Part shown: one piece after another, positions 268-15,638 of the stretch
Numbering within the stretch: the stretch's first letter is position 1
How the letters are laid out: the number at the start of each line of letters is the position of its first letter
NCBI GenBank assembly: GCA_029560455.1
Contig: JAKQKW010000011.1
Coordinates: 1-15,638, forward strand
Length of the DNA: 15,638 bases
Direction of reading: 5' to 3'
Source of the DNA: Candidatus Rifleibacteriota bacterium
Lineage (GTDB): Bacteria; Riflebacteria; Ozemobacteria; Ozemobacterales; Ozemobacteraceae
Position numbers and translations under genes: made by a program
Notes under the pieces: model-generated
Database searches by the model: none
What the model saw: only the letters and a program-made list of their open reading frames with translations
Told to the model about the DNA's origin: nothing

Positions 268-1992
268 TTATGTTTTGGTCTTTTTGATAATTTTTTTCAT
301 GCCAGCTTTCGTTACGATTTCCGTGTCGGTTCTAAATCCGAATTGTTCGTGTATTGCATCTGTCACGTCTGATCTTGCGTAGAGCGGCACGTATCCCTCT
401 CCCTGCATATCGAGAAAATCCATATCTCTGAGAGTTCGGACTATTGACGAGCCGCATATTTCTTGTTGCGGCAACTTGTCTTTCAGCCGATGTTCGAGAA
501 TTCGATAAATCAACAAAGAGATAAAACATGTCATGAAGTGAGCTTGAATTCGATCATCTCGACTCAAGAATACTGGCCTGGCGCGTAATTCATGCTTCAT
601 AATGCGAAAAGACTGTTCTATTTCCCAACGTCTCTTGTTGATTTTAAGAATTTCCGTTGGTTCTGCCTCAAGATTGGTGCAAACAGCGTAGAAACCGTCG
701 AACTTCTCCTCGTTGGCTATGGCATCAGTATTTAGAACAAAGACATTTTTGTCTGCGACTTCACCTTCATTTGTGCAATGGAGAGAAGTAACAAAGCGTT
801 CAGGATCATTTGGTCGCTTCCGTTTCAGTGATGATGGCTTTTTCAGTTTTTCTTCAGCGCGTATAATCTGCCTTTCTCGCACTTTTCTCATGTAGAGCCT
901 ATATTTAGGAGCATATGTAATCACTAATTGCTCTTCCAGACCATTTTCCTTAATTGGCCGGCTTTTATAATAGACACTTTGATTCTCAGAGTCTTCATCA
1001 ATGCTGTCGAGGTTGATGATCTCATTGGTTCCGGCTTTTTGCCAGTCCTTGGGGTCTAGGGCCCAGTTTTTCAGGTATCCCTTCATGGTTTTGATAGATT
1101 GAGTGACAACGTATGCTCGCTCGCCAATATTATTAAACTGTCGATTACTTTGAGATGCTAACCCTGCATCAGTGCAAACTATGAACCTGGAAAGCCCAAA
1201 GTCTCTGATGATAGCGGTTTCGATTGGAATCAAGCTTTTTTGCTCATTATCATTGCCGGGATTGATGCAGAAGGCCAGTGGAATTCCATCACCATCCATA
1301 AACAACCCCATTTGAACTATTGGGTTTGGGCGATGTTCTTTGCTGACTCCATATTGCTTTATGCCGCTTGCCTGCTCAAGTTCAAAGAAATAATTAGTGC
1401 AATCAAAGTAGAGAACACTGGTGTTGCGTTTAACGCTCTTGCAGCTTTCTTTGTAGAGTTGGCTTTGAATAAAGTTGCTTTCTTTTGCCAGAATTTCCAG
1501 AGACCTGTAAATATGCTGCAATGAAGACTTTGGAGCTTCAATAAGCCGGGAGACAGCTTCCAGAGAAGACTTCTTGGAAGAAGGATACAGAATTCTGCTG
1601 TAAACAAGAAGTGATAGAACTTCGTTCAGGTCGAAATCGAATTTATAACGTTTGCTGATGCTCTTGCAAATGCGGTCCAGAGCAAGCTCATAATAAATTG
1701 CCTGGAGGAATAGATAGCCGCCATTGTATCTGACCTGTTTCCCTTTGGAAATGCGCTTCGCACTGGAAAACTTTGCAATAACCTCGGTTCTGTCAGAGAT
1801 TTCCTCGCCGTTCAACTTATCGACTTCTTCTCGCGCCCATTCATAAGGATCGCGGCCATTAAGTTTTTGCTCAAGATCTTTGAGTGTGCCAAGTTTTCTC
1901 ACTATCTTGGAAGTCCTTTTGCCGCCAATAGTAACGGACTTTATTGCATAAAAAGACGTAGCGTTGGCTGACCTGATTACAGACAATCTCAT
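268..1992 (-). CDS. IS1634-family transposase (IS4-like DDE)
   Basis: A 574-residue, uninterrupted DDE transposase that would cut and join the IS ends. The N-terminus (MRLSVIRSANATSFYAIKS, then a SKIVRKLG motif around residues 28-35) is typical of IS1634-type transposases. Candidate catalytic residues are Asp197 in LYFDCTN, Asp275 in VCTDAGLAS and Glu459 in RRWEIEQSFRIMK. The last lies in the conserved C-terminal helix that corresponds to the YREK region of IS4-like enzymes. Length is normal for the family and no frameshift is seen, so the element may still be active. The ATG at 1990-1992 follows a purine-rich but weak ribosome-binding region (GGGGGCG). It runs opposite to the aspS remnant on its right. 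Confidence 0.93.
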   Translation of the reverse strand: MRLSVIRSANATSFYAIKSVTIGGKRTSKIVRKLGTLKDLEQKLNGRDPYEWAREEVDKLNGEEISDRTEVIAKFSSAKRISKGKQVRYNGGYLFLQAIYYELALDRICKSISKRYKFDFDLNEVLSLLVYSRILYPSSKKSSLEAVSRLIEAPKSSLQHIYRSLEILAKESNFIQSQLYKESCKSVKRNTSVLYFDCTNYFFELEQASGIKQYGVSKEHRPNPIVQMGLFMDGDGIPLAFCINPGNDNEQKSLIPIETAIIRDFGLSRFIVCTDAGLASQSNRQFNNIGERAYVVTQSIKTMKGYLKNWALDPKDWQKAGTNEIINLDSIDEDSENQSVYYKSRPIKENGLEEQLVITYAPKYRLYMRKVRERQIIRAEEKLKKPSSLKRKRPNDPERFVTSLHCTNEGEVADKNVFVLNTDAIANEEKFDGFYAVCTNLEAEPTEILKINKRRWEIEQSFRIMKHELRARPVFLSRDDRIQAHFMTCFISLLIYRILEHRLKDKLPQQEICGSSIVRTLRDMDFLDMQGEGYVPLYARSDVTDAIHEQFGFRTDTEIVTKAGMKKIIKKTKT

Positions 1993-2021
1993 TCTTGTGC
2001 GCCCCCAATATAGATACTCAG

Positions 2022-2051
2022 ATCATATCATACATTACGCACATTACGCAA
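2022..2051 (-). promoter_or_regulatory. Promoter of the transposase
   Basis: On the minus strand TTGCGT (2051-2046) and TATGAT (2027-2022) are separated by 18 bases, close to a sigma-70 consensus, about 30 bases before the transposase ATG. A perfect 9-bp tandem duplication (ACATTACGC on the plus strand, 2032-2040 and 2041-2049) lies across the spacer and the -35 box and could be a protein-binding site. Confidence 0.5.
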
Positions 2052-2073
2052 GAAAAAAAGTTGAAAATTTGAC

Positions 2074-2096
2074 AAAAAAAATAGCGCAAACGCGCT
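2074..2096 (-). terminator. Inward-facing terminator near the IS right end
   Basis: Read on the minus strand, a small hairpin AGCGC-GTTT-GCGCT is followed by A and eight T residues. It sits between the right IS end and the transposase promoter, so it would stop transcripts coming from outside before they reach the transposase. The stem is short (5 bp) but GC-rich and has a full T-run. Confidence 0.5.
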
Positions 2097-2124
2097 CTAA
2101 ATAATAGCCTGCAGAAACTTAAAA

Positions 2125-2144
2125 CTTTAGCGAACTGTCAAACT
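2125..2144 (-). repeat. IS right terminal inverted repeat
   Basis: The reverse complement begins AGTTTGACAGTTCG and pairs with the left end at 173-192 (about 14 of 20 bases). It directly abuts the aspS remnant. Confidence 0.7.
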
Positions 2145-2541
2145 TCCGGGCGGTATGGAAGCACTTCTGACCAAAGACCCGCTGACCATCAAAGCCTATC
2201 AGTATGATATCGTCTGCAACGGCATCGAGCTCAGTTCTGGCGCGATCAGAAACCACCTGCCAGAAATCATGTACAAAGCCTTCGAAATCGCCGGTTACGA
2301 TAACAGCGTCGTCGACAGCAAATTCGGCGGTATGATCAAAGCCTTCAAATTCGGCGCCCCGCCGCACGGTGGCATCGCCCCCGGCGTCGACCGCATCGTC
2401 ATGCTACTCGCCAACGAACCGAACATTCGCGAAGTCATAGCTTTCCCGATGAACCAGAACGCCCAGGATCTGCTGATGCAGGCCCCGAACGAAGCCACTG
2501 AAAAACAGCTCAAAGAACTGCACCTCAAGATCGTCGACTGA
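2145..2541 (+). pseudogene. aspS: aspS, 3' fragment (aspartyl-tRNA synthetase C-terminus)
   Basis: About 131 codons of the C-terminal part of the class II aspartyl-tRNA synthetase catalytic domain remain, out of roughly 590 in a bacterial enzyme. The reading frame enters from the IS end with [13 protein letters not shown]. It continues through [16 protein letters not shown] (part of the active-site sheet), [22 protein letters not shown] (class II motif 3, with the ATP-binding Arg in GVDR) and [15 protein letters not shown] to a TGA at 2539-2541. The N-terminal anticodon-binding domain, motifs 1 and 2 and the GAD insertion are absent. The fragment is well conserved and shows no decay, which suggests the break is recent or is an assembly join. 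A cell needs an intact Asp-tRNA synthetase somewhere, so a complete aspS must exist elsewhere. An ATG at 2155 could start a short peptide but not a working enzyme. Confidence 0.9.
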
Positions 2542-2568
2542 CCTCTCAAAGCGCACTGCATTAAACCG

Positions 2569-2610
2569 GGGTCGGCCTCACAATTCTGTGAAGCCGACCC
2601 TTTTTCTTTT
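2569..2610 (+). terminator. Rho-independent terminator of aspS
   Basis: A strong stem, GGGTCGGC-C-TCAC pairing with GTGA-A-GCCGACCC (one internal mismatch), has a 6-base loop AATTCT. It is followed by TTTTTCTTTT. It begins 27 bases after the aspS stop codon. Confidence 0.85.
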
Positions 2611-2630
2611 GCCTGAAAACTTACTGGTAA

Positions 2631-2663
2631 TTGCTGTGATTGCTGTGATTGCTGTGATTGCTG
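2631..2663 (+). repeat. 9-bp tandem repeat, 3.7 copies
   Basis: Three exact copies of TTGCTGTGA followed by the partial copy TTGCTG, between the aspS terminator and the Uma2 promoter. It does not belong to any supported gene. A short open frame across it (Ile-Ala-Val repeats) is a by-product of the 9-bp period. Confidence 0.9.
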
Positions 2664-2690
2664 CAAAATTTAAGTCTATTCTAAGGACTT

Positions 2691-2720
2691 TGTCTGTGTT
2701 AATCCGTGTTTATCCGTGGC
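2691..2720 (+). repeat. About 10-bp GTG-rich degenerate repeat
   Basis: Three imperfect units of about 10 bp: TCTGTGTTA, ATCCGTGTTT, ATCCGTGGC. The reverse complement reads GCCACGGATAAACACGGATT and onward. I recognise this as a kind of dispersed intergenic repeat seen in many environmental bacterial genomes. Its function is not known to me. Confidence 0.6.
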
Positions 2721-2755
2721 GGAAAAAACGTTTGAACAGCGCAATTACGCGCCGC

Positions 2756-2784
2756 TTGCCGGGCTGGGGGTGAGCAGGTATACT
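2756..2784 (+). promoter_or_regulatory. Sigma-70-like promoter of the Uma2 gene
   Basis: TTGCCG (2756-2761) and TATACT (2779-2784) are separated by exactly 17 bases. The predicted start of transcription is near 2791, about 24 bases before the ATG at 2815. This supports the short start rather than the GTG at 2716, which would lie upstream of the promoter. Confidence 0.65.
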
Positions 2785-2814
2785 GTCTTGAGATTTGGCA
2801 ATTCTGGAGAACAA

Positions 2815-3441
2815 ATGAGAACTTCAGTAAAAAAGAAGGTTGCAGAGCACTTCACCTGGGCAGATTATCTGCAGTGGCCTGATGAAAAGCGCTGCGAAAT
2901 AATCGACGGGCAGATATACGATATGACACCGGCACCGGGAACGGCGCATCAGGAAGTATCAGCAAATCTGATGTACGAATTTTGCGGTTTCTTCAAGGGC
3001 AAACCATGCAAAGCCTTTGCAGCGCCATTCGATGTCAGGCTTGCAGATAAGAAAGAAACCCGCAATAACTGCTCAAATGTCGTTCAGCCAGATATTTCGA
3101 TAATCTGCGACCCCAAAAAAATTGACGAAAAGGGCTGTGTGGGTGCACCGGATCTGGTTGTCGAAATCCTGTCATCATCAACGGCCTCGAAGGATCAGGT
3201 CAAAAAGCGCCGTCTGTATGAGCGGCACGGAGTCAAAGAATACTGGCTTATTCACCCAATCGAGCGTTACGCCCACATATATACCCTCAAAGACGGCGCA
3301 TATGAACTCATCGGGGCTTTCGACGACGAAGCCACGCTGGAGTCGAAGTTATTTACTGGCCTTGCCGTAAAAATGACCGAAATTCTGCCAGTTCTTAAGG
3401 TCGTCAAAGAAAAAGCCGCACCCTACAAAGCCCGAAAATAA
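2815..3441 (+). CDS. Uma2-family (DUF820) restriction-endonuclease-fold protein
   Basis: A 208-residue protein of the Uma2 family, which has a PD-(D/E)XK nuclease fold. Family members are often multi-copy and of unproven cellular role. Visible family features are FTWADYLQWPDE near the N-terminus, EIIDGQIYDM (residues 28-37), QPDISII with the likely metal-binding Asp93, PDLVVEILSSST with Glu117, the Lys-rich segment 130-132 with LYERHGVKEYWLIHP, and a C-terminal beta-rich part. All core acidic residues are present, so the enzyme looks intact. The ATG at 2815 is chosen because TGGAGA lies just before it (2805-2810), a good promoter lies upstream, and family homology begins only after it. The open frame could extend to a GTG at 2716, but that extension has no support. 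The next gene starts 68 bases downstream on the same strand. Confidence 0.87.
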   Translation: MRTSVKKKVAEHFTWADYLQWPDEKRCEIIDGQIYDMTPAPGTAHQEVSANLMYEFCGFFKGKPCKAFAAPFDVRLADKKETRNNCSNVVQPDISIICDPKKIDEKGCVGAPDLVVEILSSSTASKDQVKKRRLYERHGVKEYWLIHPIERYAHIYTLKDGAYELIGAFDDEATLESKLFTGLAVKMTEILPVLKVVKEKAAPYKARK

Positions 3442-3487
3442 ACCGCACGATCAGCCATTAAAATTTGCTCGGCGACGGGCCTAAAAC

Positions 3488-3496
3488 TGTTATCAT
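3488..3496 (+). promoter_or_regulatory. Possible extended -10 promoter before the membrane synthase gene
   Basis: TG-T-TATCAT fits an extended -10 element. No good -35 is seen at the proper distance. Transcription would begin near 3503, giving a leader of only about 7 bases before the ATG at 3510. It could be a chance match. Confidence 0.25.
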
Positions 3497-3509
3497 ATCG
3501 CTGCAGCAG

Positions 3510-5876
3510 ATGAACAGAACAAAAACAACCGGGGTGCTTTTTACGGTCGGCATTTTTGCCGGTTCATTCATGCTGTTTCTCATACAGCCCATGGTTGGCA
3601 AGATACTGCTGCCGCTGCTCGGCGGTGCACCCGCAGTCTGGACAACCTGTATGCTGTTTTTTCAGGCAGCGCTGCTTGCCGGTTACCTCTATGCCGACAA
3701 AAGCATCGCGCTGCTCGGCTGTAACCGGCAGTCGGTTCTGCACCTGATGCTGATGATCGGAAGCTGGCTGCTGCTGCCGGTCAGCATCGACACTGCCGGT
3801 CTCGAAACTGCGCACGCCAGCCCGGCGAGCTGGCTGCTGAGCCGCCTCACCGCATCGATCGGCCTGCTGTTTTTTCTGCTGGCGGCGAATGCCCCGTTAT
3901 TGCAGCGCTATTACTCGCAAAGCGGTCAGCCTGACGCCGACAAACCCTATTTTCTCTATGCCGCCAGCAACGCCGGCAGCCTTCTGGCACTGCTGGCATT
4001 TCCGTTCATACTCGAACCGTTCATGGGCGCGGGCGACATCCGCCGACTCTGGTCGGCCGGGTACATACTGCTGACGCTCATTCTTGGCGCCTGCAGTTTT
4101 ATGATCTGGAAGCAGACAGAAAATTACGAACCTTCGACTCCTTCGACCGGCCAGGGCCGGCTCAGAAACCAGAAATCACAAGCCGAGGCTCATAAACCTG
4201 AGAAACTGTGTGGAAATGCCAGCCCTTCGACAGGCTCAGGGGCCGGTATAATGGCGCCGGGCTGGGGCGATAATCTCAGATGGGCGTTTTACGGGTTTCT
4301 GCCCTGCAGCGCCATGCTCGCGGTAACGACACATATCACCGCCGACATCGCTTCGGCGCCCCTGCTCTGGATATTGCCGCTCGCTGGCTATCTTCTTTCG
4401 TTTATTCTGGCGTTTGCCAGATCGTCATACTGGCGGCAGGTATGCTGGCAGCGATACCTTTTTCCGGTAACCCTGCTGTGCCTGCTGATGTATTACTACG
4501 TGCTCACCGAACGCGCCTGGCTGTCTATCGGCATGCACCTGCTGTTTATGATGCTGACCGGCATGTTTTTTCATGCGCGGCTGGCCAGCAATGCCCCTTC
4601 TGCCAGATTTCTCAACCGTTTCTACGTCTGGATATCTGCCGGCGGCGTTGCAGCCGGCCTGTTTAACGGCATTCTTGCCCCAATGCTGTTCAAAACCCAG
4701 TTCGAATATTTTCTTACCATGCTGGCAGCTGCGCTGACCGTGGCTTTTCTTGCCGACCGGCAGTTGAGCGAGGGACTGACACTGAGACGTGAAACACTTG
4801 TCTCAATGGCTTTCGGTCTGGTTTTCTGCCTGCTGACCTATTACAGCCGCAATGGCGCCGACGACCTCTTCTCGATCGATACGGCCAAACAGCTGTTTTT
4901 CGCGATTTTTCTCATTCACCTGTATTATAGAATGCCATTTACCGCCGGAGCTTCTCTGCTGCTCATCTTCGCTATGCTTCAGGCCACCGGAACTCCATCG
5001 GAAACAAGAGTGCTGCACCGCGAGCGCAGTTTTTTCGGCATTCTCAAAGTCTCGCGTCTATCCACCGATGGCCAAACCCGCGACTCTGATCTGAAAATCG
5101 CCGGCGTCGTCGACATCTTTCATCGCCTGCATCACGGGCACACATTGCACGGCGTCGAGCGTCGGGTAAAGGTCAGAGAGCGGTTTCCGCTCTCGTATTA
5201 TTCGCGCGAAGGCCCAATCGGCGCCCTCTTCAGAACCGGTCTGATCAACCGCAACTGCAAAAATATCGGCGTTGTCGGCCTTGGCGCCGGCACCCTTGCC
5301 TGGTATGGCCGCAGCTGGCAGAGCATGGACTTTTTCGAAATCGACCCGGCCATGATCAGAATCGCCCGTAACCCTGAATTTTTCAGTTTTCTGACCGACA
5401 GTCAGGCGGCATGGCGCATCATCGCCGGCGACGCCCGCGTCAAATTGCACGAAATACCAGACAGCAGTTACGATCTGCTGATTATCGACGCCTATTCCTC
5501 AGGCTCGGTGCCGATGCACCTGCTGACTCTGCAGGCTTTCGAGCTCTACCGCAGCAAAATAAGGCCTGACGGGCTGATCGTCTTTCATGTTTCAAACCGC
5601 TACCTGAAGCTCGAACCGATAATCAGACGCATCTGCGATCAGCTCGGCATGAACTGCCTCGAAGCCTTTTACGAACCCGAGCGTGACTCGATCCGCTACG
5701 ACTGGTATGATCAGGACCAGATGGCCGGCTCACACTGGGTTGCCGCCTCGCCCCGCCGCGAAAAACTCGATCTTCTGAAAAACACCGGTCTCTGGAAACC
5801 GATGCCGGAATACGCAAATTACAAACTCTGGACCGATGACTATGCAAGCCTCTTACAAGTCTACAACTGGCGCTGA
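3510..5876 (+). CDS. Multi-pass membrane protein fused to a spermidine-synthase-like domain
   Basis: A 788-residue protein of the group often annotated as fused membrane/spermidine synthase proteins. The N-terminal half has many hydrophobic helices (first at about residues 8-30, about seven before residue 200 and six or more between 255 and 500). It carries the family signature LFLIQPMVGKILLPLLGG followed by PAVWTTCMLFFQ. The C-terminal part (about 570-788) is a Rossmann-type aminopropyltransferase/methyltransferase-like domain: VVGLGAGTLAWYG (nucleotide-binding loop, near 585), FFEIDP (acidic ribose contact), AGDAR near 640, and IIDAYSSGSVP near 658, where true spermidine synthases have their catalytic Asp. 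The substrate is unknown and polyamine synthesis is not proven for this membrane group. The ATG at 3510 is preferred to an upstream in-frame TTG at 3465 because family homology starts just after it; its ribosome-binding site is weak. Residues about 205-250 are a low-complexity linker built from a genomic repeat. The 3' end overlaps hrpB by 41 bases. Confidence 0.85.
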   Translation: MNRTKTTGVLFTVGIFAGSFMLFLIQPMVGKILLPLLGGAPAVWTTCMLFFQAALLAGYLYADKSIALLGCNRQSVLHLMLMIGSWLLLPVSIDTAGLETAHASPASWLLSRLTASIGLLFFLLAANAPLLQRYYSQSGQPDADKPYFLYAASNAGSLLALLAFPFILEPFMGAGDIRRLWSAGYILLTLILGACSFMIWKQTENYEPSTPSTGQGRLRNQKSQAEAHKPEKLCGNASPSTGSGAGIMAPGWGDNLRWAFYGFLPCSAMLAVTTHITADIASAPLLWILPLAGYLLSFILAFARSSYWRQVCWQRYLFPVTLLCLLMYYYVLTERAWLSIGMHLLFMMLTGMFFHARLASNAPSARFLNRFYVWISAGGVAAGLFNGILAPMLFKTQFEYFLTMLAAALTVAFLADRQLSEGLTLRRETLVSMAFGLVFCLLTYYSRNGADDLFSIDTAKQLFFAIFLIHLYYRMPFTAGASLLLIFAMLQATGTPSETRVLHRERSFFGILKVSRLSTDGQTRDSDLKIAGVVDIFHRLHHGHTLHGVERRVKVRERFPLSYYSREGPIGALFRTGLINRNCKNIGVVGLGAGTLAWYGRSWQSMDFFEIDPAMIRIARNPEFFSFLTDSQAAWRIIAGDARVKLHEIPDSSYDLLIIDAYSSGSVPMHLLTLQAFELYRSKIRPDGLIVFHVSNRYLKLEPIIRRICDQLGMNCLEAFYEPERDSIRYDWYDQDQMAGSHWVAASPRREKLDLLKNTGLWKPMPEYANYKLWTDDYASLLQVYNWR
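4131..4164 (+). repeat. CTTCGAC...GGCTCAG dispersed repeat unit, copy 1 (inside a gene)
   Basis: Reads CCTTCGACTCCTTCGACC then GGCCAGGGCCGGCTCAG. It is a variant of the CTTCGACAGGCTCAGG-type repeat that recurs in many bacterial genomes. Here it is translated as a Pro-Ser-Thr-Gly linker in the membrane synthase. Confidence 0.5.
4223..4245 (+). repeat. CTTCGACAGGCTCAGG dispersed repeat unit, copy 2 (inside a gene)
   Basis: CCCTTCGACAGGCTCAGGGG followed by CCGG, an imperfect palindrome and the canonical form of this repeat. It lies 92 bases after copy 1 in the same orientation and is translated as PSTGSGAG. Confidence 0.6.
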
Positions 5877-8488: not shown

Positions 8489-11400
8489 TCATTTTTTGCC
8501 GATCACAAGCAGGTCACGACTGCCGCTCAACACAAACAATTCGCCAGTAACCGGGTTAACGCCTATCGAACCGACTTTGGTAATTCCGGTAAACAACTTT
8601 TCAAGTTTGCCACCATCGATACGACAGATGCTGTCATCCCAGCCACAGCCTACCAGCAGCCCTTCAGCAACACTGTTGCTCTGACCCGTGGTAATTCCGT
8701 GAAAGTTACCACCTTCAGGTGCGGCAACCAGTTCTCTTATGGCGCCACCAGCGAGTGAAACCTCATAAACAGCCGGTTTTCCCCTGAAAAAACCACCATC
8801 GTGATACTGCACGCAATAAACAACCTTGCGTTCCTTGTCGACAGTGATAGACATCGGGCTGAGCAAAGTTTCTCCACTGGTAACCAGAGGAGTTGCCTCT
8901 GAAGCATTGTGTTTGAGATAGAAAAGGTTGCGGGCCTCAAAATCACTCAGCACAAGACCATCATCGACGACGCAGACGTCAGCCAGACCAGGAAGACTGG
9001 TGCTGACTTCGCGCGGGCTGTATGAACCATCAGGGCTGATTATAAACAGGCCCCTGTGCTGATTGCCGCTTTCATTCGACGGCCAGTAATCGAGGCCGAT
9101 AACAATTTTGCCATCTGCCATTACCGCCCCGGACCGGCAATTTATGCCATGCAGAATATCTGCCGTCGATACCACCGATGAATTCAGCTTCTTGTCTATT
9201 TTTACCAGCCGCTGGGCGCCGATCTGACAGGAAAGAACATAACTGTTTCCATCATTGTCAAAGAATATTCTGGCAAGGTCGAAAGGCGACCGCAATGCCC
9301 GGGCCTGCATATCGACCGGAACGGTAAAGCTTGCCGGCAGGTCAGCAGTTGTAAACACCCTGCCATCATCGGGCAGATAAACACCTGCAGTGGCTGCAGC
9401 GGCGCCAGTCAGCATCTGAACGAGAGTGAAGGTTGCGACAGCCCCAAGATGCGTCTGCGCCCCTTCAAGATTGTTCATGTGCAATTCAAGAAACAGCGGT
9501 TTGGATATCACCGGCGACCATTGTTTAAGGGGCACCCAGGCGCCATGTTCCCAGTAACTGCCCTGCATGATGCCACTGCGCCGGGTAACGCATAACCAGG
9601 CCTTGTCAAAAGTTCGATTAAGATGCTCCTGGTGGCTGGCCCAGCGATTATCGGTGCGATAATTGAAGGCATATCGCCAGGCTGAACCTCCGATCATGCG
9701 CGGCGAAAAGAATCCGTAATTCTGACCATTGTTATCAGTTACCGCAAAATGAAGAAGCTGCGTTTTTCCGTCACAAACGGCGGTTGATTCTGGTTCGAAG
9801 CTGACCACACAGGCAAAGTCAGAATCAGGCTGCAGGCACAGCTGTGATTGCACAGTCATGTTGCCCGGCTTTTCATCGACAAGCTGCAGACTTACTTCTT
9901 TTTCAGAATTTGTTAGAACATTGCCAGATGCCGAAATAACATCCCACTGCACTTTTTTCAACTGGTCACCAGACTCATTGCAATATTCGACATTATGCAG
10001 AGTCGCAACTGCCGGCTCATCGCGCGAACCGTCGGCAGCAACACGCTTGATCATAAAGCCTGCATAAACGGTTTCTGCAGTCGGAAGAAATTCGCGACCG
10101 CCCAGCAACCAGGTTTTACCCTCGTCAACGCTGTGATAAAAACGCCACAGAGTGCCGCGGCGGGTTAATTTGAACCTGACCATGCGGTCCGGAGCGTCCT
10201 GTGTTTCGCGGTGTGGCCGATTGAAGGTGCTCAGCTTACTGAGCCCTTCATATCTTAACCAACCGCCAAGAATGCGGTAATGTTCGCCAACCCCGCCAGG
10301 CTCGAACTGCCGGGCAAGAGTGCCAAGATAACTGCCGGGTGCCAGCATGACGAATTCGAGCGTAGCGAGTTGATTACTCTTACAATCAAGCTTTACATCA
10401 GCCATGAGGTCAAAATCGCCGCTGAATTTGCGTATCAGGCGTGGCGCTGTCTCGCTTCTACCCCAGAAGTCATGCCCGTCAGGCACGGTTATCTGCAGAG
10501 TATCAGGGTCTGGCGAAGTATAAGTGACCCTGCCGGTCGGATTTTCGAACAGCCAGTCAGAAGGAATCACACCCTCTTCAAATTTGACACAGCCAGAGGC
10601 ATTAGAGATCGGCTCATCATCTGCCACGACATTTCTGAAATCCTGCCCGCGAAACCCGTCTTGTGGCGCTGAATAAGGAACAATTTCAAGGGTTTCAAGG
10701 TTAAGACTGTTGCCGGCATCTACTGCCAGCCAGTCTTCCCCGGTTTTTGTCATCACTCTGCCTTCAGAAACGCTCACCGAAATGAGTTTACCCTCGGCGT
10801 TAACGCTGACTGAAAAATCAGTGCCAACCGGCCTGACAGATTTATCACCGGCCATTACCACAACTCCACCGGCATCATCTGCGATTCTTACATCACCTTT
10901 TTCGATGTGTATTTCAACTTCTTCATTTTTGTTGCCACTGAGTCTGACTACTGAATTGGGTTTGACGAGAACCTTTGAGCCATCAGGCAGTGTCAGCAGA
11001 ACCTGCGCCTGATCGGTTTCGATAACGTCGCCATCTTCGAGCAGAGAGCCACTGCGTGCGGGAATTTCTGCCTTGACTTCGAGAGCTTCGATGCTGATCT
11101 GCCAGTCCTGTTCAATCAGACGGCCTGATAATGGGCCAAAAGACCGGCCTGGAAGAACTGTCAGATAAAGTTTGCCGGCGCCGTTCCAGGCAGCTTCACC
11201 GTTATATTTGTTGTTCTCGACCTGACCGCTCCATTCGCCAAGCGTTTCACCGGGGCCATCCTTTCCGCCCCAGTCTGGCACAAAATGCAGATTAACACCG
11301 GCATTGTAATTTCCCATGCTCATACCACCAGGATTAGGTGGGTTAGCTTCGAATGTCATCTTCAAACGGCCGCTGCCCGCAAGCTTGAACGGCCCGGCAC

Positions 11401-13696
11401 TGAAATTCGGGGCTTCCTGACCTTTGAAAGCGCCACCGCCAGAATAAATACTGCCCGCCCGGGCTATTTCGCCCTCTTTACTGGCCATATTAGCCTTTTT
11501 CAGGCGGCCGCCGGTCGACAGAGAAATCTTGCCAAGACGGCCCTTGAGGGGCTCGATATTGCTCTTCGCTCTTATTATTCGGCCATCGGCGTTACGATAA
11601 CGTTTCAGAAAACCGGCGTAGTATTCGGCCATGGCTTCGTCATAGGCTTTTCTGCCGTATTTCTGAAGAATTTCGAGCATGCGCCAGGCGATGTCTGCAT
11701 TGCGCGGCAGTCCGTCAGCAGTAAAGCGGTCGAGAGTTTCGCCATGCATCTTTATCATTTTTCCCAGCAGGGTGTAGTATTCATCAGGCCTTTGCTGTTT
11801 GAAATCAGCATTGTCGAGACCGTCTTTGCCGGCAACCCTGATGCCCTTCTCATCAAGCCTTTTCTCGATTTCTTCGATCTGCTTCAGGCGTTCTGCAAGG
11901 TCTTTTTCATTTTTGTAGCGCTGCACCAGATATTGTTTGATCCGCACCTCGACTTCTGAATCAGTGATGCCAGGCTCATTGCGCCGCAATTCTTCGAGAA
12001 TCTCGCGCAGGCCGCCAGCAGAAAAGCCCAACGCCGACTGAGTGTTGAACCATTCATCAATGTTCTTGATATCACCGCCTTTGGCAAAGTTCCTGTAGAG
12101 CTCTTCAAGAGTTGCGTTCTTGAAAGCATTTGAACCGAGACCAACTACCATGGTAGTAAGGCGGCCATAAAGCTCGGCAACAGCCAGTGGTGGAAAACCG
12201 GCCTGCATGAGCTCGATGAGAAAACGGCCCGACATGGCTCCGATAGCGCGCTCAGTGCCGCCTTCCTTTTTCCCCTGCGTATAAGCTTCCCAGAGGCCAT
12301 ATCCGGCTGCCACGAGAAGAACCGCTTTGCCGGTAGCCTGAAAAAGCTTGGATCTGAATGAGATCAGGTCTTCCATGTCGCCATGGATTTTGAGCCTCTG
12401 CTCGGAAGTAAGCTTGTCATAGCTGCTGCCGAAATTCTTGCGGGCCAGCCGGTCGAATTCTTCTTTGGTAAAACGCTGCATGGCTGCCGAATCTTTAAGT
12501 GAATCAGCCATTGTCTGCGCCTCAGTAAAGATTTTGGCGCTGCCAATATCGTTACTGTTCTTTATCTGCTCAGCCACCTTTTTCTTCATGTCCGGCGGCA
12601 GATTCGCAACGATGCCTGCCAGTTCCTGAGTCAGCATGCCGGGCGTTCTGCCACTTTTGATAAGTTTGATGTGGTTTTCAACAATTTCCGAGCCCATGCG
12701 ACCGGTAAGCTTCTCCATGGCCTCAGAGAATGAGCTGGCAGCGTCGCTGCCGCTTTTGCCGATGCGTTTGCCGTATTCTTCCATGAGCTCACGCACCTTA
12801 CCGACGTCTTTCTGTCCCTGAATGGTTTCGGCAATGCGCAACAGCTCTTTTTCATCAGGCGAAAGCGTACCACCGATCACCTCGAAAGCTTTGCCATTGC
12901 GGTAATCATACTTGGCCTGCTTGAGAATCTTCGTTTCAATCGAATCGGCTGCGTCGCCGACTTCTTTGCGAAAGCGGCTGTTATCGCTGAAAAAGCCGCC
13001 GGCATCTTCGGGTTTGAGTGGCGGCGGTTCAGTCATGCTGCGACGCATGCTGGTCTGGCTGATACCGCCTTCGCCGCTTATTTTCCAGATGGCGGTGTCG
13101 TCTTCCCAGAGTTTGCGGTCAAGCCACCTGTTACCACCGCTCGTGTTGTATTTTTCAGACTCGGCCACGGCTTTCACACGCTCAGGCCAGCTGCTGGTGC
13201 TGGTTGGGTCCAGAACATTTATTTTGGCAGAATCAGCCGTTACCCCAAACCGCTTTTGAAACTCTTCATTGAACTCGCCGGCGAACTTCTTGCCATCAGG
13301 CCCCATCGGAATAAAGTCACGGTCGCTGACGCCTGGGGTGTAACCTTTTCCGGTACCGTGGCTGCCGACGAGAACAAGGTCTGTGCCAGCCGCGCCGCCG
13401 CTGCGTCTTTTGGCTTCGCCAGCCACTTCCCTAATTACCCGGGTAACTTCACCGTCAACCTCTCTTATCGCCTGTTTGAGGGCGCCGGCGCCCTTCTGGT
13501 CCTTGATTACCGTTTTTTCATACTCGGGGTAATTTTTGATGATCTTTTCGACTATAGATGAGCGCTCGGCTGGATCAGCCGTTCTGGTCATGCTCTGTAT
13601 CAGGCTTTCCATTGCCTCATCGGCAATTGCGGTAAAACAACAAAGCAGCAGACAACAAACAAGGCAAAACAAAGCACTTCGGTGTATACGGGGCAT
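8489..13696 (-). CDS. Very large secreted multidomain protein: nucleotidyltransferase-like, FecR-like, beta-sandwich and beta-propeller
   Basis: 1735 residues; no single family recognised. The ATG at 13694-13696 is chosen because GGGAGG lies 6 bases before it and a signal peptide begins there: MPRIHR, a Leu/Cys-rich core, then cleavage after FTAIA near residue 25. The upstream ATG at 13714 has no such support. Regions in order (numbering from this start): about 60-165, nucleotidyltransferase-like, with VLVGSHGTG and SDRDF (Asp125, Asp127) and a possible third Asp in INVLD (163); about 165-450, charged and helical; about 457-525, hydrophobic Gly-rich segments; 560-720, helical or coiled coil with Lys/Glu-rich KQIEEIEKRLDEKG; 770-880, probable beta domain; about 885-990, FecR-like (GDVIETDQAQVLLTLPDGS, VGTDFSV, VSEGRVM); about 1040-1240, DUF1349-like beta-sandwich (HDFWGRSETAPRLIRKFSGDF); about 1260-1430, second sandwich; 1460-1735, about six propeller blades. 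The order fits a periplasmic or exported protein. Function is unknown. Confidence 0.85.
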   Translation of the reverse strand: MPRIHRSALFCLVCCLLLCCFTAIADEAMESLIQSMTRTADPAERSSIVEKIIKNYPEYEKTVIKDQKGAGALKQAIREVDGEVTRVIREVAGEAKRRSGGAAGTDLVLVGSHGTGKGYTPGVSDRDFIPMGPDGKKFAGEFNEEFQKRFGVTADSAKINVLDPTSTSSWPERVKAVAESEKYNTSGGNRWLDRKLWEDDTAIWKISGEGGISQTSMRRSMTEPPPLKPEDAGGFFSDNSRFRKEVGDAADSIETKILKQAKYDYRNGKAFEVIGGTLSPDEKELLRIAETIQGQKDVGKVRELMEEYGKRIGKSGSDAASSFSEAMEKLTGRMGSEIVENHIKLIKSGRTPGMLTQELAGIVANLPPDMKKKVAEQIKNSNDIGSAKIFTEAQTMADSLKDSAAMQRFTKEEFDRLARKNFGSSYDKLTSEQRLKIHGDMEDLISFRSKLFQATGKAVLLVAAGYGLWEAYTQGKKEGGTERAIGAMSGRFLIELMQAGFPPLAVAELYGRLTTMVVGLGSNAFKNATLEELYRNFAKGGDIKNIDEWFNTQSALGFSAGGLREILEELRRNEPGITDSEVEVRIKQYLVQRYKNEKDLAERLKQIEEIEKRLDEKGIRVAGKDGLDNADFKQQRPDEYYTLLGKMIKMHGETLDRFTADGLPRNADIAWRMLEILQKYGRKAYDEAMAEYYAGFLKRYRNADGRIIRAKSNIEPLKGRLGKISLSTGGRLKKANMASKEGEIARAGSIYSGGGAFKGQEAPNFSAGPFKLAGSGRLKMTFEANPPNPGGMSMGNYNAGVNLHFVPDWGGKDGPGETLGEWSGQVENNKYNGEAAWNGAGKLYLTVLPGRSFGPLSGRLIEQDWQISIEALEVKAEIPARSGSLLEDGDVIETDQAQVLLTLPDGSKVLVKPNSVVRLSGNKNEEVEIHIEKGDVRIADDAGGVVVMAGDKSVRPVGTDFSVSVNAEGKLISVSVSEGRVMTKTGEDWLAVDAGNSLNLETLEIVPYSAPQDGFRGQDFRNVVADDEPISNASGCVKFEEGVIPSDWLFENPTGRVTYTSPDPDTLQITVPDGHDFWGRSETAPRLIRKFSGDFDLMADVKLDCKSNQLATLEFVMLAPGSYLGTLARQFEPGGVGEHYRILGGWLRYEGLSKLSTFNRPHRETQDAPDRMVRFKLTRRGTLWRFYHSVDEGKTWLLGGREFLPTAETVYAGFMIKRVAADGSRDEPAVATLHNVEYCNESGDQLKKVQWDVISASGNVLTNSEKEVSLQLVDEKPGNMTVQSQLCLQPDSDFACVVSFEPESTAVCDGKTQLLHFAVTDNNGQNYGFFSPRMIGGSAWRYAFNYRTDNRWASHQEHLNRTFDKAWLCVTRRSGIMQGSYWEHGAWVPLKQWSPVISKPLFLELHMNNLEGAQTHLGAVATFTLVQMLTGAAAATAGVYLPDDGRVFTTADLPASFTVPVDMQARALRSPFDLARIFFDNDGNSYVLSCQIGAQRLVKIDKKLNSSVVSTADILHGINCRSGAVMADGKIVIGLDYWPSNESGNQHRGLFIISPDGSYSPREVSTSLPGLADVCVVDDGLVLSDFEARNLFYLKHNASEATPLVTSGETLLSPMSITVDKERKVVYCVQYHDGGFFRGKPAVYEVSLAGGAIRELVAAPEGGNFHGITTGQSNSVAEGLLVGCGWDDSICRIDGGKLEKLFTGITKVGSIGVNPVTGELFVLSGSRDLLVIGKK

Positions 13697-13742
13697 GAGT
13701 TCCCTCCCAGTCATGGTTATCTTGCACCAGAACAGCGGTCAG

Positions 13743-13893: not shown

Positions 13894-15126
13894 TCAGCCT
13901 TTGATGACACCGAGGGGGCGCAGTTTTACCAGCGGCTCAACGAGGTCTTTCTGGCTGCGCATGACGGTGTCGATATCTTTGTAGGCCTGCGGCGCTTCGC
14001 CGAAGTCAAAGGTTTCGCCCTTCTTTTTGCCATGGCCGCCAGCCTTTTGCCAGCGGTCGAAAACGATGCCTTCCATGGCGCGGTTACATTCATCAAGGGT
14101 CAGGTTGCGGCTGGCTTCCTTGCGACCCATGCGGCGCCCAGCACCATGCGAACACGAGGTGAACGACTCGGGGTTGCCCAGCCCGCGCACGATATAAGAG
14201 AAGGCGCCCATGCTTCCCGGGATTATGCCCAGCTCATCACGACGGGCCGAAGTTGCGCCCTTGCGATGCACCCAGACATTGCGGCCGAAGTGGTTCTCAC
14301 GGGACGCATAGTTATGATGAATATTGATTTCTTCAATGAAGGCAACTTCAGGAAAATGCTCGCGCAGCGCCGATTTAAAAGCAGCCATCATGCGCGCCCG
14401 GTTTTCGAGAGCGTAACGCAGCGCAAAGTTCATATCTCTGATATAAGCATTGCCTTCGTCAGCATCAGCCGGAAGAAAAGCCAGATCCTTACCGGGAACT
14501 TTCGCATGCCATTTCTCATTCAACTGCTGCGCCAGCTTGTTGTAATAAGCCGCAATGCGATAGCCGAGATTGCGCGAGCCAGAATGCAGCATCATCCAGA
14601 TGCGGCCCTCTTCACTCACCTGCAGTTCGATAAAGTGGTTGCCGCCGCCAAGCGTGCCGAGATTCTTGCGGTCATGCCCGAACCCGTCTTTTTCGAACCA
14701 GCCGGGCATTTTGCAATCGATTTCGGCTTCATAAGCCTCAAAGCCATCCCATGACTGGGCCTGACGATGGCTGTTGCCCTCGCCGACCGGAACCAGCTTC
14801 TTGACCCCGTCGAGAATTGCTCTGATCTGGCGCATATCGCCGAGCTGGTCGAACATGATGCTGGTTTTTATGGCGCCCATGCCGCAACCGATATCGACGC
14901 CGACCGCATTCGGAATCACCGCCGAACCGCAGGCAATAACGCCGCCGATCGGCATACCGTAACCGACATGGCAATCAGGCATCAATGCCACATGCATATC
15001 GACAGACGGGTGCGAAGCAAGATCGGCAGCCTGTTTAAATGCGTCAGGCTCGAGTTCTGAACACCATGATTTTATCGCCACATGCGCGTCAGGCGCGATG
15101 CTTTTTTTATCTTTGATCCATTCCAT
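13894..15126 (-). CDS. rtcB: RNA-splicing ligase RtcB
   Basis: A 410-residue GTP- and Mn-dependent RNA ligase that joins 2',3'-cyclic-phosphate or 3'-phosphate ends to 5'-OH ends in RNA repair or tRNA ligation. Motifs seen are MPDCHVGYGMPIGG (49-62), NAVGVDIGCGMGA with metal ligands Asp78 and Cys81 (73-85), GGGNHFIE with His164, HSGSRNLG with His181, NIHHNYA with His270/His271, and SCSHGAGR with His327, the residue guanylylated in the family. The end is KLRPLGVIKG. Length matches E. coli RtcB (408). The start is the ATG at 15124-15126, with AGGAGG 7 bases upstream; an in-frame ATG 12 codons earlier overlaps rtcA and is not used. It lies 16 bases after rtcA, so the two are one operon. No archease gene is visible here. 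Confidence 0.97.
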   Translation of the reverse strand: MEWIKDKKSIAPDAHVAIKSWCSELEPDAFKQAADLASHPSVDMHVALMPDCHVGYGMPIGGVIACGSAVIPNAVGVDIGCGMGAIKTSIMFDQLGDMRQIRAILDGVKKLVPVGEGNSHRQAQSWDGFEAYEAEIDCKMPGWFEKDGFGHDRKNLGTLGGGNHFIELQVSEEGRIWMMLHSGSRNLGYRIAAYYNKLAQQLNEKWHAKVPGKDLAFLPADADEGNAYIRDMNFALRYALENRARMMAAFKSALREHFPEVAFIEEINIHHNYASRENHFGRNVWVHRKGATSARRDELGIIPGSMGAFSYIVRGLGNPESFTSCSHGAGRRMGRKEASRNLTLDECNRAMEGIVFDRWQKAGGHGKKKGETFDFGEAPQAYKDIDTVMRSQKDLVEPLVKLRPLGVIKG

Positions 15127-15133
15127 TTTCGTT

Positions 15134-15139
15134 CCTCCT
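15134..15139 (-). promoter_or_regulatory. Shine-Dalgarno site of rtcB
   Basis: A perfect AGGAGG on the minus strand, 7 bases before the ATG at 15126, within the 16-base rtcA-rtcB gap. It decides the rtcB start. Confidence 0.85.
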
Positions 15140-15142
15140 GTT

Positions 15143-15638
15143 TCACAGGGACATGATTTCAATCTTCCAGAGCTTTTCGTTTATCTGGCTGACAGATGAT
15201 TTAACCGGCAGAAATTTTTCGATTACCTGCAGATTGGTGGTTGTGTGCAGCGAAGGCTCGGTCGTCGTGAAACTGCCACCGCCGGCAAGCGCCATCGGAA
15301 TCAGAATCTGGTCGGCGAGATGCTCGTCAACTGCAGCTTCTGAGGCAAAGAAAAGATTGGCGGCAGTATATGCCAGAGCTGCAACCTTGCGGCGCGACAC
15401 GCCAAGCTCGCCAAAGCCGGTGAACATCGCCGAACCATGCTCAAAGTCTAGTCTGATCATAGCGACATTGCCAGGGCCAGGCGATTCAACCTCGATCGCC
15501 TTCTTCTCAGTTACCGGAAACCGTGCCGCTTTTACCATTGCCTTGCTTTCGTCGTCGGCGATTTCCCAGGGGATCTTTGAGACCACCGCCAGAACCGAAG
15601 CCGTCTGCAGACTGCCGTTGCGGCTGAGATGCAGCTGC
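15143..15638 (-). CDS. rtcA: RNA 3'-terminal phosphate cyclase RtcA, C-terminal part (cut by window edge)
   Basis: About 164 residues of the C-terminal half of RtcA, an enzyme of about 340 residues that turns RNA 3'-phosphates into 2',3'-cyclic phosphates through an enzyme-AMP intermediate. The frame is open to the right edge, so the gene starts outside the window; a GTG at 15586 is internal, not the start. Visible family features are FTGFGELGVSRRKVA, AAVDEHLADQILIPMALAGG and SLHTTTNLQVIEKFLPV. The His of SLHTTTN aligns with the adenylated catalytic His (His309) of E. coli RtcA. The TGA at 15143-15145 precedes rtcB by 16 bases. The order rtcA then rtcB is the reverse of the E. coli rtcBA operon. 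Whether an rtcR-type regulator lies upstream cannot be seen. Confidence 0.93.
   Translation of the reverse strand, partial: QLHLSRNGSLQTASVLAVVSKIPWEIADDESKAMVKAARFPVTEKKAIEVESPGPGNVAMIRLDFEHGSAMFTGFGELGVSRRKVAALAYTAANLFFASEAAVDEHLADQILIPMALAGGGSFTTTEPSLHTTTNLQVIEKFLPVKSSVSQINEKLWKIEIMSL

Follow-up and report, generated by a model that had tools for sequence, protein, structure and literature searches.

To our knowledge, bacterial transferases of the nucleotidyltransferase (NT) fold, which use nucleotides or nucleotide-linked donors, work inside the cell. AadA (PDB 6fzb), a chain of 262 residues, joins an NT core to a helical bundle and carries a GS loop and an Asp-x-Asp pair. In MntA of the HEPN/MNT system (PF01909), Gly-Ser and Ser-Asp-x-Asp bind the Mg-nucleotide and a third Asp binds metal, according to an excerpt of PMC7641770. 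The available parts of PMC6965139 describe FKRP as an NT-fold transferase that uses CDP-ribitol, in which hG[GS] and [DE]h[DE]h motifs are joined to a further domain and all three Asp are essential; the title of PMC3160285 makes it a Golgi protein. Here we describe the gene at 8489..13696 of a 15,638-nucleotide stretch of DNA (the window; positions 1 to 15,638 of contig JAKQKW010000011.1, assembly GCA_029560455.1, Candidatus Rifleibacteriota bacterium), which encodes a giant, probably exported protein with a predicted NT-like head at its N-terminus. On balance, we lean towards placing it in a rare exported family in which a two-part NT-like head would bind a nucleotide-type donor and the tail modules would target an extracytoplasmic partner.

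The head resembles AadA in its predicted succession of NT core and helical bundle, in its GS loop and in its Asp-x-Asp pair. It differs in its apparent export, its longer GS-to-SDxD loop, its extra invariant motifs and the tail of ~1400 residues behind it, and the likeness is remote. With MntA it would share the GSx10DxD chemistry and the Gly, Ser, Ser-Asp and Asp behind it (excerpt of PMC7641770), but MntA is an antitoxin paired with a toxin and has a third Asp that binds metal, and the window protein has no PF01909 match. The likeness to FKRP, which needs three Asp, is drawn from the description of FKRP. FecR-, DUF1349- and NHL-domain proteins are alike just in single modules of the tail.

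The giant gene and its conserved head

The gene and its N-terminal part comprise the following features.
8489..13714, minus strand: long open reading frame
8489..13696, minus strand: whole gene, 1735 residues plus stop, from the open frame, the ribosome-binding site ahead of the ATG and BLASTP alignment
13622..13696, minus strand: signal peptide, residues 1–25, from sequence and hydropathy, with probable cleavage between AIA and D
13046..13477, minus strand: NT-fold-like core, residues ~74–217, from the predicted fold
13316..13366, minus strand: G111-S112...S124-D125-x-D127 motif, from alignment conservation
13208..13225, minus strand: residues 158–163 (KINVLD), the presumed site of a third acid
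13133..13156, minus strand: EKYNTxGG, residues 181–188, with E181, K182, Y183, N184, T185, G187 and G188 in 15 of 15 aligned rows
12656..13012, minus strand: helical bundle, residues ~229–347, modelled with a predicted local distance difference test score (pLDDT) of 87–96 in ten-residue blocks
11777..12655, minus strand: second helical, Gly-rich hydrophobic region, residues ~348–640, conserved

A preliminary description of the window, made from the letters alone, had proposed this gene span and a secreted product. The frame is confirmed, and the start at 13696 is backed by a good ribosome-binding site (gggaggg-aactc-ATG); BLASTP aligns 98–100% of the length in five of eight homologues and 49–83% in the other three. 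By eye, the N-terminus (MPRIHRS...CCFTAIA, followed by DEA) is a signal peptide, and its hydropathy peaks at 2.62 over residues 7–25. An N-terminal hydrophobic peak recurs in 14 of 15 alignment rows, and the N-termini of the other rows look signal-like by eye; export is thereby well supported as a sequence-based prediction. An Rfam scan gave no match, and a promoter and terminator scan did not rise above its own shuffles.

The alignment comprises the window protein and 14 relatives, and its rows are partly non-independent, ten pairs exceeding 55% identity in the N-terminal part. The head (residues 27–620) aligns in all 15 rows, with the relatives 26–39% identical to the window protein per segment. 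The GS(x)10SDxD layout proposed in the preliminary description is present, and its numbering of Asp125 and Asp127 is correct, but the spacer is x11 rather than x10 (G111-S112-x11-S124-D125-R-D127); across nine rows examined, this loop ranges from x11 to x17. The VGS of the window protein fits hG[GS], and residue 112 is Ser in six rows and Thr in nine behind a G111 found in all 15, giving hG[ST] for the family. As for [DE]h[DE]h, the residue between the two Asp (Lys in 11 rows, Tyr in two, Arg and Val in one each) is not hydrophobic as a rule. The motif alone is weak evidence because its loose form arises in 14.7% of 5000 shuffles of the window protein (strict form, 1.6%). It gains its meaning from G111, G122, S124, D125 and D127 being the same in all 15 rows, despite just 24–30% identity between the window protein and the others; homologues without the Asp pair, which the preliminary description had held to speak against an NT, do not occur among them.

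Conservation extends behind the core, where S237, D238, F242, R243, K259, K262, Y263, D264 and R266 of the helical bundle are invariant in 15 of 15 rows. The hydrophobic Gly-rich segment pointed out earlier is conserved in the alignment, and model confidence is low past residue ~396, within the second helical region. No 19-residue stretch of this segment reaches a Kyte-Doolittle value of 1.3 in the window protein, but 11 of the 15 rows do have such a stretch, with values from 1.3 to 1.75 and a place within residues 460–536 in their own numbering, so that contact of the segment with the membrane is conceivable. Separately, a lipoprotein-like (by eye) protein of one Chloroflexota genome (L013/L031; L013 at 784..2925, minus strand) matches the second helical region only, and weakly (E 2.1e-4 and 1.4e-5).

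We compared a Flexilinea pair (87.6% identical) by the ratio of nonsynonymous to synonymous substitution rates (dN/dS), using approximate region boundaries. The ratio is 0.088 in the NT core, 0.035 and 0.052 in the two helical regions, 0.056 in the linker and 0.051 in the beta-sandwich; it is 0.227 in the signal peptide, 0.317 in FecR, 0.127 and 0.276 in the next two regions and 0.324 at the C-terminus. In a Sumerlaeota pair dS is mostly saturated, and identity is 67–76% in the head and the next region and 42–54% from FecR on. Among the large parts of the protein, constraint is strongest in the N-terminal 600 residues, joined in the Flexilinea pair by the linker and the first beta-sandwich.

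Comparison with nucleotidyltransferases

The preliminary description had suggested the predicted fold as a check, and the best match of the N-terminal fold is a nucleotidyltransferase, AadA (6fzb; VIA-align, moderate Z). In a Foldseek search of the PDB with the N-terminal model, the sole match with E up to 0.001 was the designed protein 8cws; BFVD gave no match at E up to 0.001, and a Klosneuvirus 'putative nucleotidyltransferase' at rank 28 (E 0.65) is unusable alone. By sequence, the PDB returned two weak rows over the FecR part for the full protein (E 0.24 and 0.46) and, for the N-terminal alignment, four rows with E of at least 0.25, none of them an NT.

Profile comparison with small sets gave at most 0.6% for NT sets, and 0.9% (RtcB) and 1.3% (Uma2) for unrelated window proteins. 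With larger sets and two slices, the AadA set reached 2.5 and 1.7%, the MNT set (30 rows from 30 loci) 1.1 and 0.7%, the remaining sets at most 0.8%, and the single AadA-like L023 0.2 and 0.1%. The AadA set holds five rows of 13 loci, eight having been dropped because the motif filter missed them, and L066, one of the five, is MNT-like. Its best value (2.5%, score 22.0), itself the best of several comparisons (seven sets, two slices), beats all 100 column-shuffled queries, of which the best reached 1.3% (score 20.0), and the 1.1% of the MNT set falls inside its shuffles (top of 50, 2.2%). Both local alignments with the AadA set place SDRD on the SDxD of the set, and the realigned version also pairs GS. 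Nine known NT pairs, run as positive controls, scored 94.1, 90, 57, 49, 13, 13, 12, 3.3 and 2.0%; the method thus frequently fails to detect genuine relatives, and little can be concluded from a low value in either direction.

Two lines of evidence, the invariant motif with the structural match and the profile value above shuffles, point to a probable NT-like head that is supported by prediction, each line being moderate or weak alone. We place the protein on a probable new branch close to the NT superfamily, short of proven membership, because no curated NT profile is matched and the sequence and fold tests are indecisive.

Several results weigh against the reading that we favour. Pfam and NCBIfam scans of the window protein and nine N-terminal members matched no curated NT family, and the profile comparison with NT sets is marginal. 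Nor does the 15-row alignment hold an invariant third acid at residues 158, 160 or 163, in or beside the third strand, where it would presumably lie; the plausible third Asp of the preliminary description has no conserved counterpart. Residue 158 is Asp in ten rows, Gln in two, Gly in two and Lys in one, the window protein, so that it is non-acidic in five rows of four lineages (window, P0006, the Flexilinea pair and P0009). Residue 160 is Asn in 13 rows and His in two, and residue 163 is Asp in 14 and Ser in P0009. A very weak MNT alignment (0.4%) instead pairs the third Asp of MNT with residue 155. Transfer by the head is uncertain because no third acid is kept and because nucleoside triphosphates are scarce outside cells.

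Relatives, tail and neighbourhood

A search of ~5.8 billion proteins returned the window protein and eight relatives (P0002–P0009; 26–30% identity over 49–100% of the length). A second search, with the 15-row profile, contributed the fragment P0010 and four rows (P0011–P0014) that we did not count as members at E 0.0097 to 0.89, three of the four having a FecR annotation. In one genome each of 84,980 species, 37 pattern stretches led to six loci, two each in Flexilinea and Sumerlaeota and one each in Leptolinea and Caldilineaceae, with one copy per genome. Sampled genomes gave matches in 2 of 400 Chloroflexota (one just a weak partial match), 2 of 40 Sumerlaeota, 3 of 400 members of the order to which the Leptolinea genome belongs and 1 of 46 members of the order of the Caldilineaceae genome, and all full matches were genomes already among the six loci. 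Within the bounds set by genome sampling and by the candidates scored, the family is real and very patchy, with a single copy wherever it was seen.

No relative was present among 38 pattern stretches from viral contigs, tblastn at E up to 0.1 found no match in plasmids and phages, and PHROGs gave three rows only (E of at least 0.15). Among 7994 candidates scored, no protein of ~330–1040 residues shared the N-terminal module at E up to 1. Among the matches listed in two full-length protein searches, no non-family protein has the tail modules behind this head, and the open-access literature, with subscription journals mostly uncovered, held no paper with the searched term combination or phrases. 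A PADLOC Cmr6 row (one of nine members, E 0.0044) was taken as chance, as was L032 (E 5e-4) after its sequence had been read. P0003 (2221 residues) and P0010 (652 residues) look mutually close by eye, and TPR repeats lie near the C-terminus of P0003.

The tail is divided as follows.
11072..11455, minus strand: beta-sandwich, residues ~748–875, from the C-terminal model; P0003 aligns poorly here (13% over 97 columns)
10754..11029, minus strand: FecR domain, residues 890–981 (Pfam PF04773, E 5.9e-9, 36.7 bits, cut-off 24)
9974..10600, minus strand: DUF1349-like beta-sandwich, residues ~1033–1241, from the model and PF07081 (E 1.6e-4, under the curated cut-off)
9389..9946, minus strand: second, putative beta-sandwich, residues ~1251–1436, from the model
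8492..9364, minus strand: predicted six-bladed NHL/SMP-30-type propeller, residues ~1445–1735, from a strong fold match

Of the tail domains named in the preliminary description, FecR is detected by sequence and the propeller is supported by the predicted fold, which matches NHL/SMP-30 six-bladed propellers; the beta-sandwiches come from the model, but the DUF1349 match stays under the cut-off. Pfam otherwise gave one row at E 0.16, and NCBIfam three rows at E of at least 0.026. FecR is over the cut-off in the window protein and P0002, under it in P0004 and P0006, and unlisted for P0008. The propeller (last 290 residues) aligns over 287–292 columns in P0002, P0003, P0004, P0006, P0007, P0008, L002 and L005. 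In P0005, P0009, L001 and L003 this stretch covers just 183–208 columns at 16–20% identity; these proteins seem to end in another domain, which suggests that the tail may be exchanged and the head kept. L004 and L006 break off at a contig edge inside the gene.

Upstream on the same strand lie rtcB (13894..15162, minus) and the end of an RNA 3'-phosphate cyclase-domain gene (15143..15637, minus); the two overlap as listed and are probably an rtcA-rtcB RNA-repair pair. Downstream, a convergent hrpB-type helicase gene ends 34 bases away. Elsewhere, the neighbours (six scanned with Pfam) are different ones: Flexilinea has a LacI-type regulator and a cyclase-like protein, both Sumerlaeota have HPPK, Caldilineaceae has a rhamnosidase and Leptolinea has DinB. 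Looking to related genomes, as the preliminary description had advised, we find the head and much of the tail in distant homologues too, but no partner gene is common between lineages in the loci read (L004 and L006 ending before their downstream side); close relatives do have neighbours in common with each other. These loci support neither an immunity gene nor a fixed operon.

Other genes of the window include a DDE transposase (268..1992, minus) adjoining a class II tRNA synthetase fragment (2155..2541, plus; 128 residues from the first start, domain end only), whose gene is cut, because stops close the frame ahead of it. A Uma2-family putative nuclease (PF05685, 6.2e-38) lies at 2716..3441 (plus), and 3465..5876 (plus) encodes 803 residues, with an N-terminal half that looks hydrophobic by eye and a methyltransferase/spermine-synthase-like C-terminal part, both Pfam rows being under the cut-off.

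Possible functions of the head

In the reading that we favour, the part behind the signal peptide would be a head in two parts, with a helical bundle behind an NT-like alpha/beta core, as in AadA. The GS loop, Ser124 and Asp125/Asp127 would hold a metal-nucleotide or a nucleotide-linked donor, and the invariant Lys, Tyr and Arg of EKYNTxGG and the helical bundle may complete the pocket. The long helical region and the probable binding modules would put the head on an extracytoplasmic partner, for example a surface glycan or protein. Its likeliest job would be nucleotidyl or phospho-group transfer to a surface acceptor; if the third acid is really missing, it may instead bind or sense such a ligand. 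A more specific version, in which an active, surface-held NT-fold transferase outside the cytoplasm modifies surface glycans or proteins of its own cell or of neighbours with nucleotidyl or phospho-groups, is possible but doubtful; the invariant EKYNTxGG and KxxKYDxR would then define a new NT family. Of the exported nucleotidyl-transferring enzyme envisaged in the preliminary description, the predicted NT-like fold, the Asp pair and the probable export stand, but no curated NT family is matched, no third acid is conserved, and activity is conjectural.

The variation at residue 158 and the Ser at residue 163 of P0009, set beside the three Asp that FKRP needs (available parts of PMC6965139), would fit a head that is a non-catalytic descendant, keeping the loop and Asp pair for a nucleotide or phosphate ligand in a sensor or adhesin. 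We consider this rather unlikely, as the Asp pair, Ser124 and many nearby polar residues are identical in 15 of 15 rows, purifying selection on the region is strong in the one pair measured, and the third acid could be any of several residues. A coincidental likeness to NTs, in which an unrelated alpha/beta fold happens to carry GS...SDxD, would agree with the weak sequence scores, the moderate structural scores and the frequency of the loose motif in shuffles; the invariance of the motif, and the choice of AadA-like proteins by both the structural aligner and the best profile comparison, make it unlikely.

The effector or toxin option of the preliminary description, that is, a polymorphic-type toxin for delivery into other cells, its toxic part being the NT-like domain, draws on the size and modular make-up of a secreted protein and on NT-related RelA/SpoT domains being known toxin domains (excerpt of PMC3482391). 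We keep it as a very improbable alternative. No neighbour is common between lineages in the loci read, and none follows downstream in the window before the convergent helicase; the putative active part is N-terminal, conserved and slow-evolving, unlike swapped C-terminal toxin tips, and it appeared neither in the shorter candidates scored nor in the plasmids, phages or viral contigs searched.

A conserved exported NT transferase, if that is what the head proves to be, would pose two questions, namely how it obtains its donor and which surface targets it marks. The invariant residues of the family make its function directly testable with one purified domain.
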